NCBI RefSeq assembly: GCF_903064525.1
Contig: NZ_LR797830.1
Span: 1,674,001 to 1,738,000 of the forward strand
From: Methylacidimicrobium sp. AP8
Lineage (GTDB): Bacteria > Verrucomicrobiota > Verrucomicrobiia > Methylacidiphilales > Methylacidiphilaceae
Length of the DNA stretch: 64,000 nucleotides
Reading direction: 5' to 3'
How positions within the stretch are numbered: position 1 is the first letter of the stretch; each line of letters starts with the position of its first letter. This document shows positions 12,256 to 20,770 of this stretch, piece after piece. The position numbers and the translations under genes are program-made. Under the pieces are notes generated by a model that worked only from the letters and a program-made list of their open reading frames with translations, was not told the DNA's origin and made no database searches.

Positions 12256-12627
12256 TCACTCCGTCGGAGCCCTCCCGCCCGCTTCGGCCTCGTACAGGCG
12301 ATCGGTCTTCGCGGCCATGATGAAGTCGTTGCGGTGCAAGCCGCGAATCTTGTGGGTCCACCAGCTCACCGTCACTTTCCCCCACTCGACTAGCAGGGCC
12401 GGATGGTGCCCCTCCTGCTCCGCCAGCTCGCCGACCCGCCGTGCGAAGCGCATCGCTTCGGCGAAATCGGGAAAGAGGAAGGCTCTTTCCAGGATCGGGA
12501 TCCCGTCTCTCTGCTCGATCCGCCATTCCGGGACCTCGTGCCGCATCGTCTCGATTTCGGCGTCGGTCAGCCTTGGGGCGTCCTTTCGACAGGCGGTACA
12601 GCGCTCATCGGTCAGCGTCGTTTTCAT
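12256..12627 (-). CDS. phhB: Pterin-4a-carbinolamine dehydratase
   Basis: 123 residues. The conserved core EGHHPALLVEWGKVTVSW followed by THKIRGLHRNDFIMAAKTD carries the His-His-Pro active-site signature. The N-terminal LTDAEIETMRHEVPEWRI also fits the family. It dehydrates 4a-hydroxytetrahydropterin, recycling pterin cofactor; in bacteria without phenylalanine hydroxylase the role is unclear and may concern molybdopterin or folate pools. The CxxC near the N-terminus (CTACRKD) is extra. Neighbours give no clear pathway. Confidence 0.9.
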   Translation of the reverse strand: MKTTLTDERCTACRKDAPRLTDAEIETMRHEVPEWRIEQRDGIPILERAFLFPDFAEAMRFARRVGELAEQEGHHPALLVEWGKVTVSWWTHKIRGLHRNDFIMAAKTDRLYEAEAGGRAPTE

Positions 12628-12684
12628 GCGACAAGCTACGCGGGCGCCGTCCGCTGCGCAAACAATCCCGGGAACGGGCGCCGC

Positions 12685-14532
12685 CTACTCCAAGCCGAAG
12701 ACGACAAGCTCGCCTCCCGGGGTCGTCGAACCCGGGAGCCCGGAGTCATACGCCGCTCCCGAAGCGCCCATGGCCCCCTGCCGATCGCCCCTGGGCAGAT
12801 CGAGGGCGGCCGGCAGTCCGAACCAGCCGCCGACCCCGGAATAGACAGCGACATATTCCTTGTTGTCGGGACCGAGAAAGGCGATCGGGCTGCCCACGAT
12901 GCCCGAGCCGAGCTTCTGCTGCCATAAGAGGACGCCGGTGCGCGCATCGACCGCCTTGAACCAGCCGTCGAGAGTCCCATAGAAGACCAGGCCGCCGGCG
13001 GTGGCCAGAGCGCCGCTGCAAACCGGGAATCTTTCCTGGAGTTCCCAGGCGCGCCTCCCTTTCACCGGGTCCCAGGCGATGAACTCGCCGTAATATTTGT
13101 CCCGCCCCTCATGACCGGAGTAGATCGTTAGGTTGGCTCCGATGTAGGGGAGTCCCAAAACATAGCGGGCCTCCGTGGCCTCGATGTCCATGCAGAGGTT
13201 GTTCGTCCCGAGGTAGAAAAGATGGGTCTGCGGCGCGTAGGCCGCCGGCTGCTGATTCTTCCCGCCCATGGCCGAGGGGCAGACTCCTTTGATGTCGATT
13301 CCAGCCTTCGCCCTCTTCTCCGGAACTTCGATCGGCCGGTCATCCCCGCGGTTGATCCCCTTGGCCCAGTTCACGTATACGAAAGGGGCCGCCGAGAGCA
13401 CCTCTCCGGTCGCGCGGTCTAGCGTGTAGGCAAAGCCGTTCTTGTCGAAGTGGACGGCGCATCGGCGCACGCCTTCCCCGATCCGCAGGTCGACCAGGAC
13501 GAGCTCGCTGGTGCCATCGTAGCCCCATGAGTCCCAAGGAGTCATCTGATAGGCCCACCGGGCCATCCCCGTAGCCGGCCGGCGGCCCCAGAGGGTGCAG
13601 GCCCACTTGTTGTCTCCGCCTTTTCTTTCGTCGGGGTTCCAGGAGCCCGGGTTGCCGGACCCGTAGTAGAAGAGGTCGAGCCCCGGGTCGTAGCTGAACC
13701 AACCCCACGTCGTCCCTCCGCCCAACTTCCACTGCTCCCCGGGCCAGGAACGGGTGCCCTCACCCGGCCCGCCGTGGCGCGGGCATTCCTTGTTGAAATC
13801 GCGCTCGAGCAGGATATCGTCGTCTGGCCCTTGACTATAGGCCACCCAGCGAGCCTTGCCGGTGTTGATGTCGTAGGCGTTGACGCGACCCCGGACGCCG
13901 AACTCGCCCCCGGAGATCCCGACTAGCACCATGTCCTTGATGACAATGGGGGCTCCGGTGATCGTCTCCCCGCGACCGATTTCGCCCTGCTTCACCTTCC
14001 ATATCTCGTCGCCGGTGTGCGCGTCCAGGGCGATCAGCTGCCCGTCCAGGGTGCCCAGAAAGATCTTCCCCATCCCGTAGGCGACTCCCCGGTTGACGGT
14101 GTCGTAACAGGCCTCCGTGATCGCCCCCGGCTTTTGCGCCGGGGTGTACTTCCACAAGATCGCGTATGGCTTTCGGGCCAGGTCCAGGGCGTAGACCGTG
14201 TTCGGGAAAGGCGAGTGCACATACATGGTGCTGCCGACGACAAGCGGCCCGCCCTCATGGCCCCGGAGAGCGCCGGTGCAAAAGCTCCAGGCAACGTGCA
14301 GCCGTTCGACCGTTCTCGTGTTGATCTGGTCAAGCTCGCTGTACCGCGTGGCCGCGTAATTCTTGCCCGCCATCGGCCATTGACCGGGATCCGCCCCCAG
14401 CCGAACCAGCTCCTCGTTGGCCCGCGACCGGGACGGCGTAGCCAAAAGGACGATCACAGGGTATACCCAGATCGTCCGAAGGCCACGTCCATGGTTCCCC
14501 TTCCTCTCCGTCGTCCGCCGTTCGACTCCCAT
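12685..14532 (-). CDS. XoxF-like PQQ-dependent methanol/alcohol dehydrogenase with altered active site
   Basis: 615 residues from the ATG at 14532, which has GGAGAGGAG upstream. A signal peptide (IWVYPVIVLLATPSRSRA) is followed by an eight-bladed PQQ propeller of normal length. Metal and cofactor residues are kept: Glu210 in GGEFGVRG, Asn294 in GSGNPGSWN, the Trp of TTWGWFSYDP, and the Arg of YTLDRATG. Asp339 matches the extra lanthanide ligand of XoxF. The catalytic base is missing: the usual WDYDG reads WGYDG with Gly337. The vicinal Cys-Cys is Cys142-Tyr143. No xoxG or xoxJ partner is adjacent. Either a divergent enzyme or an inactive PQQ-binding paralogue. Confidence 0.85.
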   Translation of the reverse strand: MGVERRTTERKGNHGRGLRTIWVYPVIVLLATPSRSRANEELVRLGADPGQWPMAGKNYAATRYSELDQINTRTVERLHVAWSFCTGALRGHEGGPLVVGSTMYVHSPFPNTVYALDLARKPYAILWKYTPAQKPGAITEACYDTVNRGVAYGMGKIFLGTLDGQLIALDAHTGDEIWKVKQGEIGRGETITGAPIVIKDMVLVGISGGEFGVRGRVNAYDINTGKARWVAYSQGPDDDILLERDFNKECPRHGGPGEGTRSWPGEQWKLGGGTTWGWFSYDPGLDLFYYGSGNPGSWNPDERKGGDNKWACTLWGRRPATGMARWAYQMTPWDSWGYDGTSELVLVDLRIGEGVRRCAVHFDKNGFAYTLDRATGEVLSAAPFVYVNWAKGINRGDDRPIEVPEKRAKAGIDIKGVCPSAMGGKNQQPAAYAPQTHLFYLGTNNLCMDIEATEARYVLGLPYIGANLTIYSGHEGRDKYYGEFIAWDPVKGRRAWELQERFPVCSGALATAGGLVFYGTLDGWFKAVDARTGVLLWQQKLGSGIVGSPIAFLGPDNKEYVAVYSGVGGWFGLPAALDLPRGDRQGAMGASGAAYDSGLPGSTTPGGELVVFGLE

Positions 14533-14683: not shown

Positions 14684-15919
14684 ATGCCCATGAAGTTTTT
14701 TCCACAGCCGGCCCCTTTTCGATCCGCCGCCTTCCGGATGCTCTTCTTCGGACAAGCCGCTTCCTTCGTCGGCAGCTGGGTCCAGAACGTAGGGCAAGGA
14801 TGGCTTGTCTACCAGATGACCGGCTCGCCATTTTGGTTGGGTCTTTTCGGTTTCGCCGGCTCCCTTCCCCTGCTCCTCTTTTCCTTGCCCGCCGGAGCCT
14901 TGGCGGATCGGTTTGCGCGCAAGCGGATCGTGATCCTCGCCCAAACCGCGGCTCTCTTTCTGGCTTCCAGCCTCGGCCTGCTCGCCTTCCTCCACCTCCT
15001 CTCTCTCCCGGCTCTCGCCCTTATCGTCTTCGGCCTGGGCCTGGCCGGCTCCTTCGAGCTTCCCGCCCGGCAAGCCCTCTTCCTCGACGTCGCCCCGGAC
15101 GGAGAGATCCGCGCCGCCGTCGCTTGGAACTCGGTGCTCTTCAACGGAGCCCGTCTGATCGGCCCCGCCATCGCCGCCTACGTGATCCCCTGGCTGGGCG
15201 TGGCCGCCTGCTTCTGGATCAACGCGCTTTCCTACCTGATCTCCCTCGCCTGCCTTTTCCGTGTTTCCTCTCCGCCTCGAGGCTCGCCGGACAAACCGGT
15301 GCTCCCCTCTTTTGGCGAAGCCTTCCGCTACCTCACCGCAAGGAAGCCCCTCCTCGGTCAAGCCTGCCTGATCGGCCTCGTCACGATCTTCGGCTGGTCC
15401 TACACCGTGCTGCTCCCCTTTTTCGCCGAAAGCCTTCTCCATAGCGGCCCCAAGGGCCTCGGGCTGCTGATTTCCGCCAACGGAGCCGGATCCCTCGTAG
15501 GCGGACTGGCCGCGGCCGGGCTCGTGCGCAGGTTTCCGCTGCCCCGGCTCGTTTTCGTCGGCCTCGGCCTCTTCCTCCTCTCCGCCGCCTCCTTTGCAGT
15601 CTCCCGCTTGTTTTTCCTCTCGATGGCGCTGCTCGCGCTGGCGGGCTCGGGGCTGGTCATCTTCCTTTCGGCCGGGAATGCGTTCCTGCAAGAACAGACG
15701 GCTCCGGAGCTGCGCGGCCGAGTGGTCGGCGTCTCGGCTTTTCTTTTTCAAGGTCTTTTCCCCGTCGGCAGCCTCTTTGCCGCGCTCGCCTCCCGGCTTT
15801 GGGGCGCCCCGGCTGCGGTCTTGATCGGCACGGGCCTCTGCGGCCTCGGCGCGCTCGGGGTCGCGGCCTGGAGCTTCCGATGCCCCTGCGGGAGCCGAGC
15901 CTCCGCCAGGCGGGAATAG
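14684..15919 (+). CDS. MFS transporter (EntS/MFS_3 type)
   Basis: 411 residues from the ATG at 14684 (a second ATG at 14690 is possible). About 12 hydrophobic segments are visible. Family landmarks include FRMLFFGQAASFVGSWVQNV at the N-terminus, the loop motif GALADRFARKRIVI between helices 2 and 3, and ELRGRVVGVSAFLFQGLFP near the C-terminus. Proteins of this group export small molecules such as siderophores or drugs; the substrate cannot be told. It is divergent from the XoxF-like gene with a 151-base spacer. Confidence 0.85.
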   Translation: MPMKFFPQPAPFRSAAFRMLFFGQAASFVGSWVQNVGQGWLVYQMTGSPFWLGLFGFAGSLPLLLFSLPAGALADRFARKRIVILAQTAALFLASSLGLLAFLHLLSLPALALIVFGLGLAGSFELPARQALFLDVAPDGEIRAAVAWNSVLFNGARLIGPAIAAYVIPWLGVAACFWINALSYLISLACLFRVSSPPRGSPDKPVLPSFGEAFRYLTARKPLLGQACLIGLVTIFGWSYTVLLPFFAESLLHSGPKGLGLLISANGAGSLVGGLAAAGLVRRFPLPRLVFVGLGLFLLSAASFAVSRLFFLSMALLALAGSGLVIFLSAGNAFLQEQTAPELRGRVVGVSAFLFQGLFPVGSLFAALASRLWGAPAAVLIGTGLCGLGALGVAAWSFRCPCGSRASARRE

Positions 15920-17118: not shown

Positions 17119-18237
17119 TCAACGGGGCACCAAGTGGACCGCATGGGCCTTGATCCAGCCGTAGAGCGGCTTGCCGACGGCCAGCCCCAACTCCTGGCCG
17201 GCCCCGCGGGTGACCCGGGCGACCAGCGGAAATCCGCAATCGAGCACGACCCGGATCACCTGCCCCTCAGCCTCCAGCTCGGTCACACGGCCATGGAGTC
17301 GATTCCGGGTGCTCATGGGAAAGCTTCCCTCCTCGGTCGAGAGGACGACATCCTCGGCGCGCACCATCGCGTAGACCCGCTCGGGCAGGGGCTCCTCGCC
17401 GGCGACCGCCCAAAGCCTGCCGCCCGGCACCTCCACTTCCGCAACCCCCTCGCGAACAGAAACGCAGCGGCCGGCCACGACCGTTTCCACGCCCAGGATT
17501 TTCCCGGACTCACGACTCGCCGGACGAGCGAAGACCTCCGCGAGCGGACCCGTCTGGAGCACGCGTCCCGCCCCGACTACGGCCAGATCCGTCCCCAGGA
17601 GAACCGCTTCCCTCTGCTCATGGGTCACGAAGACGGCCGGAAGCGACCGCTCCCGGATAGTCTTCCGGATCAACACCACCAGCTCGCTGCGGGCGCAGGG
17701 GTCCAGGCCTGCGAACGGCTCATCCAGGAGCAGGAGCCGGGGCCCGGAGGCCAAGGCCCGTGCCAGCGCGACTCTCCGTCGCTCCCCCCCGGACAGTGTG
17801 GCTGGAGCGCGTCCGGCCAGCGGGGAAAGGCCGCAGCTTTCCATGGTCTCTCCGACCCGGCGGCGCTTTTCGTCTCCGGATAGGCCGCGCAGCCCGAAGG
17901 CCACGTTCCCAGCCACGCTCAGGTGCGGAAAGAGCGCGTCGTGCTGGTCGACATAGCCGATCCTCCTCCGCTGCGGAGGCACCCAGAGCCTCCTCTCCGT
18001 ATCCACCCAGACCTCATCGCGGAATCGGATGCTTCCGAAGCTCGGTCGGCCGAGCCCAGCCAGAGAGCGGAGAATCGTCGTCTTACCGGCTCCGGAAGGT
18101 CCGAAGAGCACGAGGACTCCCGCCGGATCGAGGGCGAAGCAAAAGGCAGCTTCCACCCATCCGCCCCCCTCGTGCCGAAGGCGAAAATCAGCCGCCAGCT
18201 CTTCCGTTCCGCCACCGCGCACACCTGAGCATAGCAC
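17119..18237 (-). CDS. modC: Molybdate ABC transporter, ATP-binding protein
   Basis: 372 residues if the GTG at 18237 is used (GGGAAG upstream); a second in-frame GTG is at 18222. Walker A GPSGAGKTT, Q-loop YVDQHDALFPHLSV, signature LSGGERRRVALARAL and Walker B LLLLDEPFAGLD are all present. The C-terminal part holds the molybdate-binding TOBE region (STRNRLHGRVTELEAEGQVI). It powers molybdate or tungstate uptake with ModA and ModB. Last gene of modABC; convergent with rnpB. The start codon is the uncertain point. Confidence 0.9.
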   Translation of the reverse strand: MLCSGVRGGGTEELAADFRLRHEGGGWVEAAFCFALDPAGVLVLFGPSGAGKTTILRSLAGLGRPSFGSIRFRDEVWVDTERRLWVPPQRRRIGYVDQHDALFPHLSVAGNVAFGLRGLSGDEKRRRVGETMESCGLSPLAGRAPATLSGGERRRVALARALASGPRLLLLDEPFAGLDPCARSELVVLIRKTIRERSLPAVFVTHEQREAVLLGTDLAVVGAGRVLQTGPLAEVFARPASRESGKILGVETVVAGRCVSVREGVAEVEVPGGRLWAVAGEEPLPERVYAMVRAEDVVLSTEEGSFPMSTRNRLHGRVTELEAEGQVIRVVLDCGFPLVARVTRGAGQELGLAVGKPLYGWIKAHAVHLVPR

Positions 18238-18287
18238 GGGCTTCCCGCGTCCGGCCAGACCGGGGGCACGCCGCGCCCGGTTCCGCC

Positions 18288-18953
18288 TCAGCCGAGCGGA
18301 ACCCTCTTCTGCAACCGGTAGGCGGCGGAAAGCAGAAGAAAGGAGAGGGCAAAGAGCAGGAGCGCGGTGCGGGTTGCCGAAGTGTAGTCGAGGGATTCGA
18401 CGGCGTCGTAGACCGCGATGGAAAGAGTCCGGGTCACCCCCGGAATGTCGCCCCCCACCATCAGAACGACACCGAACTCCCCCAAGGTGTGCGCGAAGCT
18501 CAGGACGACCCCGGAAACGATTCCAGGCCAGGACAGCGGCAGGATGACCCGGAGCAACGTCTCGGTTCGTCCCGCACCGAGGATCCATGCCGCCTCGCAA
18601 ATCCGCCTGGGAACCCCGCACATCGCAGCGGCTACCGGCTGGACGAGAAAAGGGAGGCTGTAGAGGACCGACGCCACCCACAGCCCCTCGAAGGAAAAGA
18701 CGAGGGATCCCCCGCCGGTCAGCCGCTCATACCATCGCCCGAGCCACCCGCCGCGCCCGAGACCGACGAGCAGGAAGAAACCGAGCACCGTCGGCGGCAG
18801 GACCAGCGGCAAGGCGATGATCGCCTCGACGGCGGGCCGGATCCGGCTCGGGGAGTAGGCGATCCAAGAGGCCATCGGCATCCCGATCACGAAGAGCGTG
18901 AGCGAGGTTACTCCCGCAAGCTTTAGGCTCAAGGCCAGCGCCGTCCAGTCCAT
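18288..18953 (-). CDS. modB: Molybdate ABC transporter, permease
   Basis: 221 residues with five hydrophobic segments. The coupling-helix signature appears as EAAWILGAGRTETLLRVILP, and the segment GVVLSFAHTLGEFGVVLMVGG is characteristic of ModB/CysT-type permeases. It forms the membrane channel with ModC. It starts 24 bases after modA and is followed after about 50 bases by modC. Confidence 0.93.
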   Translation of the reverse strand: MDWTALALSLKLAGVTSLTLFVIGMPMASWIAYSPSRIRPAVEAIIALPLVLPPTVLGFFLLVGLGRGGWLGRWYERLTGGGSLVFSFEGLWVASVLYSLPFLVQPVAAAMCGVPRRICEAAWILGAGRTETLLRVILPLSWPGIVSGVVLSFAHTLGEFGVVLMVGGDIPGVTRTLSIAVYDAVESLDYTSATRTALLLFALSFLLLSAAYRLQKRVPLG

Positions 18954-18977
18954 GGGCGATCGCGAGAAAAAAATCGT

Positions 18978-19769
18978 TCAGAGGCCGTGCGATCGAAAGA
19001 GCTTCTGTCCCTCGGGACCGACCAGAAAGTCCCGAAAGGCCTCCGCCCACTCCGGATGGCGGCATCGTTGCAAAATCACCCCGCCTTGCTCCAGGACCGA
19101 AAAGGCCTCGGCCGGGAGCTCCGCAAAGCGGCCCTCCTTTTGGGCGGGCGGAGCCAAGGCGAGCGAGCGGGAGATCAAGCAAGCGTCAGCCGCCCCCTGC
19201 TGCGCGAACTGAAAGGCCTGCACGACGTTTTCTCCGAAGACCAGCTTCGACGCAAGAGCGGGAAGCAGGCGGGCCCGGCGGAGCCCCTCCTCGGCCGCGC
19301 GCCCGTACGGGGCGACCCGGGGATTGGCCAGCGCCAGGCGCCGGAGAGCCGAGCTCCGGAGGGCTGCCAGGGCATCTCCGGCCTTCCAGATCGGAGATTC
19401 CCTCTTCGCCCAGAGGACGACCGACCCGTGCGCATAGACGAATACAGGTCCCCGGGCCGCCCCTGCCAAGATCAGCCGTTCGGGATATTCCCGGTCGGCG
19501 GCCAGAATGAGATCCCAGTCGGCGCCCTGGAGCGCCTCGGCGTAGAGCTTGCCCGAAGAGGCGTACGTCGCTTCGATCCGGACATCTTTTCCCGCCTTTG
19601 GAAAGGCAGCGATCGCCTCCGGCAAGGCATAACGGAGATCGGCGGCTGCTCCAATCCGGAGGGCCGCCTCGGGAGCCCCTTCCGCCGCTTCCAGACGTTC
19701 GGAGAAGAAGGGCGCCGCCGGTGCCGAAGCCAGGGCCAATAGAACGAGCGTTAACCAAAGAGGACGCAT
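18978..19769 (-). CDS. modA: Molybdate-binding periplasmic protein
   Basis: 263 residues with a signal peptide (LWLTLVLLALASAPAAPFF). The mature part has the ModA signatures AAADLRYALPEAIAAF, ATYASSGKLYAEALQGADWD and ANPRVAPYGRAAEEGL. It captures molybdate or tungstate and delivers it to ModB. First gene of modABC, divergent from fdhD by 119 bases. The pairing with fdhD suggests that molybdenum supply serves a formate dehydrogenase, which is not in this window. Confidence 0.92.
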   Translation of the reverse strand: MRPLWLTLVLLALASAPAAPFFSERLEAAEGAPEAALRIGAAADLRYALPEAIAAFPKAGKDVRIEATYASSGKLYAEALQGADWDLILAADREYPERLILAGAARGPVFVYAHGSVVLWAKRESPIWKAGDALAALRSSALRRLALANPRVAPYGRAAEEGLRRARLLPALASKLVFGENVVQAFQFAQQGAADACLISRSLALAPPAQKEGRFAELPAEAFSVLEQGGVILQRCRHPEWAEAFRDFLVGPEGQKLFRSHGL

Positions 19770-19888
19770 AGCGACTTAATAGAAGTCCTCGGAGGCGAAG
19801 AAAAGCGTTTCGCGGCCCCCTCCGCCGATCGGCCCTCCGCTCCTTCTCTCCGTTGCCCCTCTTCTCCGGGCGGGCGTATAGTGGCTGC

Positions 19889-20770
19889 ATGGCGATCCGG
19901 CCCGGGGGCAAATCGAACGTCGAGCTGTGGACTTGGGAAAAGGCGAGCGTTGTGCTCCGCACGGATACGGTCGCCGTGGAAGAACCCTTGGAGATCCGTC
20001 TTCGCGCCGGAGGGGAGGAGCGAATTGTCGCCATCACGATGCGCACCCCCGGCGCGGATTTCGAGCTTGCCGCAGGTTTCCTCTACGGGGAAGGGGTGGT
20101 GCGCGATTCCCGATTGATCCGCTCGATCTCCTACTGCGTGGATCGGAGGAGGAAGGAGGCGCAGCACTACAACGTCGTCACGGTCGAGCTGACCGCCGAC
20201 CGACTCCCGGAATTCGGCGGGCTCGAGCGCCACTTCCTGACCACCAGCGCGTGCGGGGTTTGCGGACGCGCTTCCCTGGAAGCGCTCCGCGATCGCGGCT
20301 GCCGCCCCCTCCCTTTCGCCTGGAGCATCCCCGCCTCGCTCCTGCCCGCTCTGCCGGAGCGGCTCGGCTCCCGCCAGGGGATCTTCCGCGCGACGGGCGG
20401 CCTCCACGCGGCTGGCCTGTTCAGCAAGGAAGGCGAGCTGATCGCCTTGCGGGAGGACGTGGGCCGCCACAATGCCATGGATAAGCTCGTCGGATGGGCT
20501 CTGCTCCAGGGCCGGCTCCCCCTGTCGCACTGTCTGGTCCTGGTGAGCGGGCGCGCCAGCTACGAGTTGTTGCAGAAGGCGCTGGCGGCGGAGCTCCCGG
20601 TCTTTTGCGCGGTGTCCGCCCCGAGCAGCCTGGCCGTGCACCTGGCCCGGGAGTTTTCCCTCACGCTGGTCGGATTTCTCCGCGGAGAGCGCTTCAACGT
20701 CTACGCGGGCCGGGAGAGGATCCTCCCCGCGGAGGCCGGTTGTTTGCCACAAGCCCCGGGAAATGGTTAA
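19889..20770 (+). CDS. fdhD: Formate dehydrogenase accessory sulfurtransferase
   Basis: 293 residues from the ATG at 19889. The functional CxxC is in TTSACGVCGRAS; the family segments ATGGLHAAGLF, REDVGRHNAMDKLVGWAL and VSGRASYELLQKALAAELPV are intact. FdhD transfers sulfur from a cysteine desulfurase to the Mo cofactor of formate dehydrogenase. It lies head to head with modABC. In methanotrophs formate dehydrogenase is the last energy-yielding step of C1 oxidation. Confidence 0.93.
   Translation: MAIRPGGKSNVELWTWEKASVVLRTDTVAVEEPLEIRLRAGGEERIVAITMRTPGADFELAAGFLYGEGVVRDSRLIRSISYCVDRRRKEAQHYNVVTVELTADRLPEFGGLERHFLTTSACGVCGRASLEALRDRGCRPLPFAWSIPASLLPALPERLGSRQGIFRATGGLHAAGLFSKEGELIALREDVGRHNAMDKLVGWALLQGRLPLSHCLVLVSGRASYELLQKALAAELPVFCAVSAPSSLAVHLAREFSLTLVGFLRGERFNVYAGRERILPAEAGCLPQAPGNG

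Follow-up and report, generated by a model that had tools for sequence, protein, structure and literature searches.

Genus-Wide Loss of the Catalytic Aspartate From XoxF2 in Methylacidimicrobium

The xoxF2 Locus of Strain AP8

The window, i.e., the whole 64-kb stretch of Methylacidimicrobium sp. AP8 DNA that was analyzed, carries on its minus strand a gene for a PQQ-type dehydrogenase-like protein. The gene and its immediate surroundings are as follows:

14532..12685, minus strand: xoxF2 gene; 615 aa, signal peptide and PQQ-type beta-propeller, Gly at the position of the catalytic Asp
12628..12684, minus strand: 57-bp gap to the next gene; in Methylacidiphilum, xoxJ and xoxGJ stand here, ahead of the pterin dehydratase gene
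12256..12627, minus strand: 4a-hydroxytetrahydrobiopterin dehydratase gene, downstream syntenic neighbor (NF002016, 170.2 bits vs. a cut-off of 133; synteny)
14690..15919, plus strand: divergent MFS transporter gene, upstream syntenic neighbor (PF05977/PF07690; homologues at 11/12 further loci in the comparison)

The protein passes the profile for PQQ-dependent methanol/ethanol dehydrogenases (TIGR03075, 630.5 bits vs. a cut-off of 480.05), and its best PDB match is 4MAE, the XoxF of Methylacidiphilum fumariolicum SolV, with a residue offset of 38. With the profile for acido-empty-quinoproteins (TIGR04528), it scores 278.4 bits, under the cut-off of 650. The first-pass annotation had called it a XoxF-like dehydrogenase without giving a strand, and this assignment holds for the minus-strand frame. 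Two xoxF genes have been described for AP8, of which MTHMO_v1_1756 is xoxF2 (PMC7907005). The 615-aa protein is taken to be this published XoxF2 of Methylacidimicrobium thermophilum AP8, since the other xoxF of AP8 adjoins xoxJ, as the published locus tags imply for xoxF1 (PMC7907005).

In a midpoint-rooted tree of 40 rows selected from the loci at hand, with six forks open, AP8 XoxF2 groups with the XoxF2 of Methylacidiphilum and of a Methylacidithermus-like genus (13 XoxF2 rows, support 100/100). An AlphaFold2 model built on 12 sequences (mean pLDDT 66.8, pTM 0.76) serves for the overall fold only, with pLDDT values below 50 in the active-site stretches 138–147, 295–310, and 331–341. The best Foldseek matches to this model are 6FKW and 4MAE, in line with the earlier claim of an intact fold; the XoxF fold is thus kept in the predicted structure. 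By descent, the protein is a XoxF2, and on the active-site features tested it falls outside the XoxF methanol dehydrogenases.

Substitutions in the Active Site

The metal-binding residues of SolV XoxF are Glu172, Asn256, Asp299, and Asp301 (reviewed in PMC11845868). In MxaF, position 303, which equals 299 in the numbering used here, is the catalytic aspartate and position 305 a metal-coordinating residue (PMC9291206). Aligned with 4MAE, AP8 XoxF2 exhibits the following residues at these and further positions (4MAE numbering in brackets and in the substitution names):

13522..13524, minus strand: Gly337, codon GGC (Asp299; D299G), motif W-G-Y-D-G
13516..13518, minus strand: Asp339 (Asp301), lanthanide-specific ligand, kept in 7/7 genus members
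13903..13905, minus strand: Glu210 (Glu172), metal ligand, kept in 7/7 genus members
13651..13653, minus strand: Asn294 (Asn256), metal ligand, kept in 7/7 genus members
14104..14109, minus strand: Cys142-Tyr143 replacing the vicinal Cys104-Cys105 (C105Y); Cys-Tyr in 7/7 genus members, Cys-Cys in 6/6 sister orthologues
13441..13443, minus strand: Lys364 replacing active-site Arg326 (R326K); Lys in 7/7 genus members, Arg in 6/6 sister orthologues
12856..12858, minus strand: Glu559 replacing the otherwise invariant Gln521 (Q521E), in 7/7 genus members
13018..13020, minus strand: Cys505 replacing the conserved Trp467 (W467C), in AP8 and two relatives only (3/7)

The vicinal disulfide probably participates in electron exit, and its second cysteine is the one replaced by tyrosine. 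Trp238, which we take to be the PQQ-stacking tryptophan, is unchanged in all seven genus members, and Arg326 presumably faces PQQ. Lysine at position 326 is also present in quinoprotein dehydrogenases which keep the aspartate (locus L094 and ADH-type paralogues). Trp467, on our assumption, corresponds to a PQQ-contact tryptophan of MxaF, and its loss in three of the seven genus members may weaken PQQ binding. Considerable evidence on the disulfide ring is mentioned in the paper on AP8 XoxF1 (PMC8546591). Because Asp299 is also counted as a metal ligand (PMC11845868), the predicted lanthanide sphere of AP8 XoxF2 is short of one ligand. The motif WGYDG with Gly337 in place of the catalytic aspartate, the three retained ligands Asp339, Glu210, and Asn294, the Cys-Tyr pair, and the retained stacking tryptophan had all been read from the sequence by the first-pass annotation and are borne out by the alignment, to which R326K, Q521E, and W467C are further additions.

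Fixation Across the Genus

The sample of the family consists of 13 genomes, seven from Methylacidimicrobium and six from two sister genera, and a XoxF2 protein is present in every one of them. Glycine at position 299 and the Cys-Tyr pair occur in 7/7 Methylacidimicrobium genomes, aspartate and Cys-Cys in 6/6 sister-genus genomes. Three genus members encode the glycine by GGC and four by GGA, and this synonymous variation indicates that glycine was held while its codon changed. A sequencing or assembly error is refuted, as the same residues are found in seven separate genomes with different synonymous codons.

An alignment had been proposed to establish whether Gly337 is conserved in an orthologous clade, which it is throughout the genus. 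Orthologues that keep the aspartate, which had been named as evidence against the idea, do exist in all six sister genomes, yet they leave it standing because the change sits on the genus stem and no genus member has Asp. The earlier interpretation of an Asp-less XoxF-like protein kept by selection is therefore retained and widened to the genus, and the loss of the aspartate is confirmed as real, genus-wide, and firmer than first noted.

Synteny and Partner Genes

The position of xoxF2 is common to Methylacidimicrobium and Methylacidiphilum, where the gene shares its MFS transporter, pterin dehydratase, dehydrogenase, and Lpd-region neighbors. Comparison with a wrong paralogue is excluded by this synteny together with the tree. 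In Methylacidiphilum, the order is divergent MFS transporter, xoxF2, xoxJ, xoxGJ, and pterin dehydratase, followed by more shared genes. The third genus likewise has xoxJ and xoxGJ after xoxF2, so that these partner genes stand at 6/6 sister loci. In Methylacidimicrobium, the synteny comparison found neither xoxJ nor xoxGJ beside xoxF2, and the 64-kb window of AP8 contains no match to either. Four genus genomes have the pterin dehydratase gene directly after xoxF2 (AP8, G005, G001, and G004), and the remaining three have another gene there (G002, G006, and G003, where the contig stops 543 bases past xoxF2).

The sole xoxJ found in the AP8 genome adjoins xoxF1, and a match to the cytochrome part of xoxG is also located at the xoxF1 locus. 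The earlier statement that no xoxG or xoxJ lies next to the gene is accordingly correct. None of the identified neighbors of AP8 xoxF2 points to a sensing system. Molybdate ABC transporter-like genes and an fdhD-like gene, recognized by eye, are situated near xoxF2 at 17119–20770 of the window and suggest a formate-oxidation neighborhood.

Selection and Evolutionary Rate

The mean dN/dS of genus XoxF2, computed after Nei and Gojobori (NG86), is 0.082 (range 0.052–0.107 in 21 pairs of seven sequences) with a dS near 0.8 among species, and the control value for genus XoxF1 is 0.075. The sister-genus ratio of 0.023 was left out of the contrast, given its high dS (mean 1.48). Within AP8 and three relatives, xoxF2 has a dN/dS of 0.091 vs. 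0.071–0.187 in five usable neighboring genes, of which E2, lpd, PCD, and HAD lie above xoxF2 and hibadh (0.071) below it; the names hibadh, HAD, E2, and Lpd are readings of the sequences rather than profile-based assignments. The assertion that selection maintains the protein is thereby demonstrated. A pseudogene is excluded, as the frame is undisrupted (no internal stop codon in 7/7 genus genomes) and the dN/dS of about 0.08 is far from near-neutral.

At the level of single sites, 102 positions unchanged in 20 intact enzymes served as the invariant set. Three of these have changed in all seven genus XoxF2 (C105Y, D299G, and Q521E) and eight differ within the genus, while R326K, likewise fixed, affects a site that is invariant only when intact XoxF are considered. 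Variation within the genus is rarer at the invariant sites (8/102) than elsewhere (119/475; Fisher p 6e-5). In the XoxF1 control, 1/109 invariant sites varies, less than in XoxF2, and constraint on genus XoxF2 is thus somewhat relaxed at these sites. Relative-rate comparisons with either sister lineage gave the genus lineage the higher rate in 24/24 cases (p < 0.05 in 18), which are not independent of each other; a faster lineage fits the expectation after a change of role. The picture suggested by these sequence comparisons is a burst of change with fixed active-site losses, followed by strong, slightly relaxed constraint.

A functionless relic in slow decay would agree with the relaxation at invariant sites, with the loss of catalytic residues and partner genes, and with the bare expression of xoxF2 in one published condition (PMC7907005, PMC8546591). 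It is nevertheless very improbable, as the uninterrupted frames and the low dN/dS are joined by two further signs of maintenance: glycine was kept through a synonymous codon change, and genus XoxF2 is 84–88% identical to the AP8 copy, above the published average amino-acid identity of 78.0–78.5% between AP8 and two genus species (PMC8170126).

XoxF1 and Expression

An intact XoxF1 (WDYD, Cys-Cys, Arg) is present in 6/7 genus genomes and 0/6 sister genomes, and the one genus genome where it was not found is fragmented and 83% complete. The xoxF1 copies of two genus genomes (L026 and L027) read WDYDA instead of WDYDG. In AP8, expression of xoxF2 is 85-fold below that of xoxF1 at maximum growth rate (PMC7907005).

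The co-occurrence of both proteins in the genus, the retained fold, and the homodimeric nature of XoxF (PMC8546591) are compatible with a structural or regulatory role in which a dead XoxF2 chain pairs with XoxF1 or competes for XoxJ and XoxG. Such a partnership is unlikely, if somewhat less so than slow decay: XoxF2 and XoxF1 of AP8 share only ∼51% identity, the 85-fold difference in expression disfavors a stoichiometric role at maximum growth rate (PMC7907005), and purified XoxF1 gave one dominant gel band (PMC8546591).

Recurrence of the Asp-to-Gly Change

A collection of species genomes was scanned with the pattern T-P-x-D-x-W-[G/A/V]-[Y/F]-D-G, which requires Asp301 and is blind to other replacements and contexts. 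The scan returned 35 stretches. A tblastn search (E ≤ 1e-5) matched 12 of these to AP8 XoxF2 and left 23 unmatched. All 12 homologues have Gly, never Ala or Val. Seven lie outside this family, namely three from Gemmatimonadetes, two from Hyphomicrobium, and one each from Methylophaga and Methyloglobulus. On the sampled 40-row tree, the Asp/Gly character needs five changes. The Methylophaga and the Methyloglobulus genome each also contain an intact copy, which branches as the sister of the Gly copy; the Methyloglobulus Gly copy contains one in-frame TAG and may be broken. Among best-match loci, some of which represent one gene repeatedly, Gly is found in 2/20 from 8 genomes, and in a second set of 29 genomes it occurs in 1/18 site-covering loci of 20 best-match loci fetched.

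Six of the seven outside proteins (all except that of Methyloglobulus) were entered in a site table, in which Cys-Cys is kept in 6/6, Asn256 is lost in 5/6, and Glu172 is replaced by Asp in 4/6. Methylacidimicrobium exhibits the reverse pattern, with the other metal ligands invariant and the base and the vicinal Cys pair lost.

Several of these loci have features of their own. The Gly-bearing XoxF-like genes of Hyphomicrobium (L043, 4791–6710; L053, 4006–5919) read WGFDG with Glu172 replaced by Asp and Asn256 by Ser, and adjoin formyltransferase/hydrolase complex-like genes recognized by eye. Downstream in L053, a cytochrome resembles the methanol-metabolism family TIGR03874 (137.9 bits, below the cut-off of 161.75). 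In a Methylophaga MAG (L033, 1995–3689), the Gly-bearing copy is followed by the ovothiol synthase gene ovoA. The Gemmatimonadetes MAGs (L035, L047, and L048) contribute a XoxF-like clade that reads WGYDG and has Arg or His at position 256 instead of Asn. A more distant quinoprotein from the same genome as L053 (G065; L107, 1471–3171) reads WGYDV, carries Arg where the metal-ligand Glu would be, and probably lacks a working metal site.

The recurrence bears on the main rival explanation, an active enzyme with altered chemistry in which Asp301 or another group serves as the base and Gly299 widens the pocket for a different substrate or electron acceptor. That the sampled tree requires five changes and that 12/12 homologues have glycine suggests that Gly is useful rather than random. 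The strong purifying selection and the retention of three of the four metal ligands in the genus also speak for such an enzyme, as does the below-cut-off cytochrome next to the Hyphomicrobium relative. The AP8 papers moreover propose other lanthanides or substrates for XoxF2 (PMC7907005, PMC8546591). However, the base, the disulfide, and the cytochrome and XoxJ genes were lost together, which fits a loss of redox function better, and the Gly relatives elsewhere mostly show more erosion of the active site. An altered enzyme is thus possible, but only tentatively so.

Function of the Genus XoxF2

The reading considered best is that the ancestral verrucomicrobial XoxF2 gave up methanol oxidation along the stem of the genus and has been retained as a periplasmic protein with a lanthanide/PQQ pocket, to which a probability of roughly 0.55 is assigned. 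Three active-site losses fall on that stem: that of the catalytic base through D299G, that of one cysteine of the disulfide above PQQ through C105Y, and, as a milder change, that of the PQQ-facing arginine through R326K. The cytochrome and periplasmic partner genes xoxJ and xoxGJ are absent from the locus as well. The oxidation of methanol would fall to XoxF1, which has xoxJ and xoxG of its own. A loss of this normal activity in XoxF2 fits the missing base, the missing vicinal Cys pair, the missing partner genes at the locus, and the 85-fold lower expression. To judge from its signal peptide, XoxF2 would still be exported, and it is under strong purifying selection with its remaining lanthanide ligands invariant. 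Because Glu172, Asn256, Asp301, and the propeller are kept under this selection, binding of a lanthanide and perhaps of PQQ is suggested. Most likely, then, XoxF2 would bind a lanthanide, probably with PQQ, but would not turn over methanol, and its non-catalytic role might be that of a sensor, a carrier or buffer, or a protein partner, e.g., of XoxF1.

More specifically, the genus XoxF2 could be a dedicated periplasmic sensor or buffer for lanthanides (and PQQ), in which the aspartate and the electron exit were removed and the other lanthanide ligands kept. This proposal, drawn from the residue pattern, is speculative and about as doubtful as an enzyme with altered chemistry. XoxF is described as part of a lanthanide regulatory cascade in Methylorubrum (PMC9291206, citing reviews and Skovran), and the AP8 genome report describes lanmodulin as not found (PMC7907005). 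If true, the proposal would describe a new kind of lanthanide-handling protein in an organism where lanmodulin was not found, and Asp to Gly would be a repeatable route from enzyme to non-enzyme.

In print, AP8 XoxF2 is treated as a working alternative methanol dehydrogenase (PMC7907005, PMC8546591, PMC12482762). The induction of XoxF2 by a heavier lanthanide is named as a point still to be tested (PMC7907005), substrate availability is suggested to govern its use (PMC8546591), and a 2025 survey reads the presence of XoxF1 and XoxF2 as functional specialization (PMC12482762). A literature search, which for the most part did not extend to subscription papers and supplements and so leaves unpublished status unproven, turned up no statement on the absent aspartate. 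If XoxF2 cannot oxidize methanol, papers and surveys that count it as a second methanol dehydrogenase and the two-enzyme physiology proposed for the genus would have to be corrected, and to ask about an expression switch between two methanol dehydrogenases is to ask the wrong question. Should lanthanide binding persist, XoxF2 would be a candidate for the lanthanide-handling component that bacteria lacking lanmodulin are still missing. The repeated Asp-to-Gly changes provide a ready test set for XoxF-like proteins without a base.

Comparison With Known Systems

The nearest solved relative is XoxF2 of SolV (4MAE, 6FKW), which shares 67% identity and the same fold with AP8 XoxF2, as well as Glu172, Asn256, Asp301, and Trp238; the Methylacidiphilum xoxF2 is also the positional orthologue of the AP8 gene. 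The two differ at Asp299, Cys105, and Arg326, which are Gly, Tyr, and Lys in AP8, and the AP8 gene lacks the xoxJ and xoxGJ which follow its counterpart. XoxF1 of AP8 (PDB 7O6Z) belongs to the same genome and family at ∼51% identity but differs from XoxF2 in that its active site is intact, it has xoxJ and xoxG of its own, and its expression is high; XoxF1 is the working enzyme. The Ca-dependent methanol dehydrogenase MxaF likewise has a single aspartate in the motif (WDYAG; WGYDG in AP8 XoxF2) and is nonetheless its mirror image, as of the two aspartates MxaF has the catalytic one and not the lanthanide one, whereas in AP8 XoxF2 the opposite is the case. The acido-empty-quinoproteins of group A (TIGR04528) are a named quinoprotein-like class whose name implies an empty cofactor site; in contrast to this class, AP8 XoxF2 keeps most of its pocket residues. 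Finally, the Gly-bearing XoxF-like proteins outside the family (L035, L047, L048, L043, L053, L033, and L060) share the Asp-to-Gly change and Asp301, the latter as required by the search pattern, but differ from AP8 XoxF2 in their separate origins on the tree, their retained Cys-Cys, and their other metal ligands, which are frequently replaced (Glu172 by Asp; Asn256 by Ser, Arg, or His).
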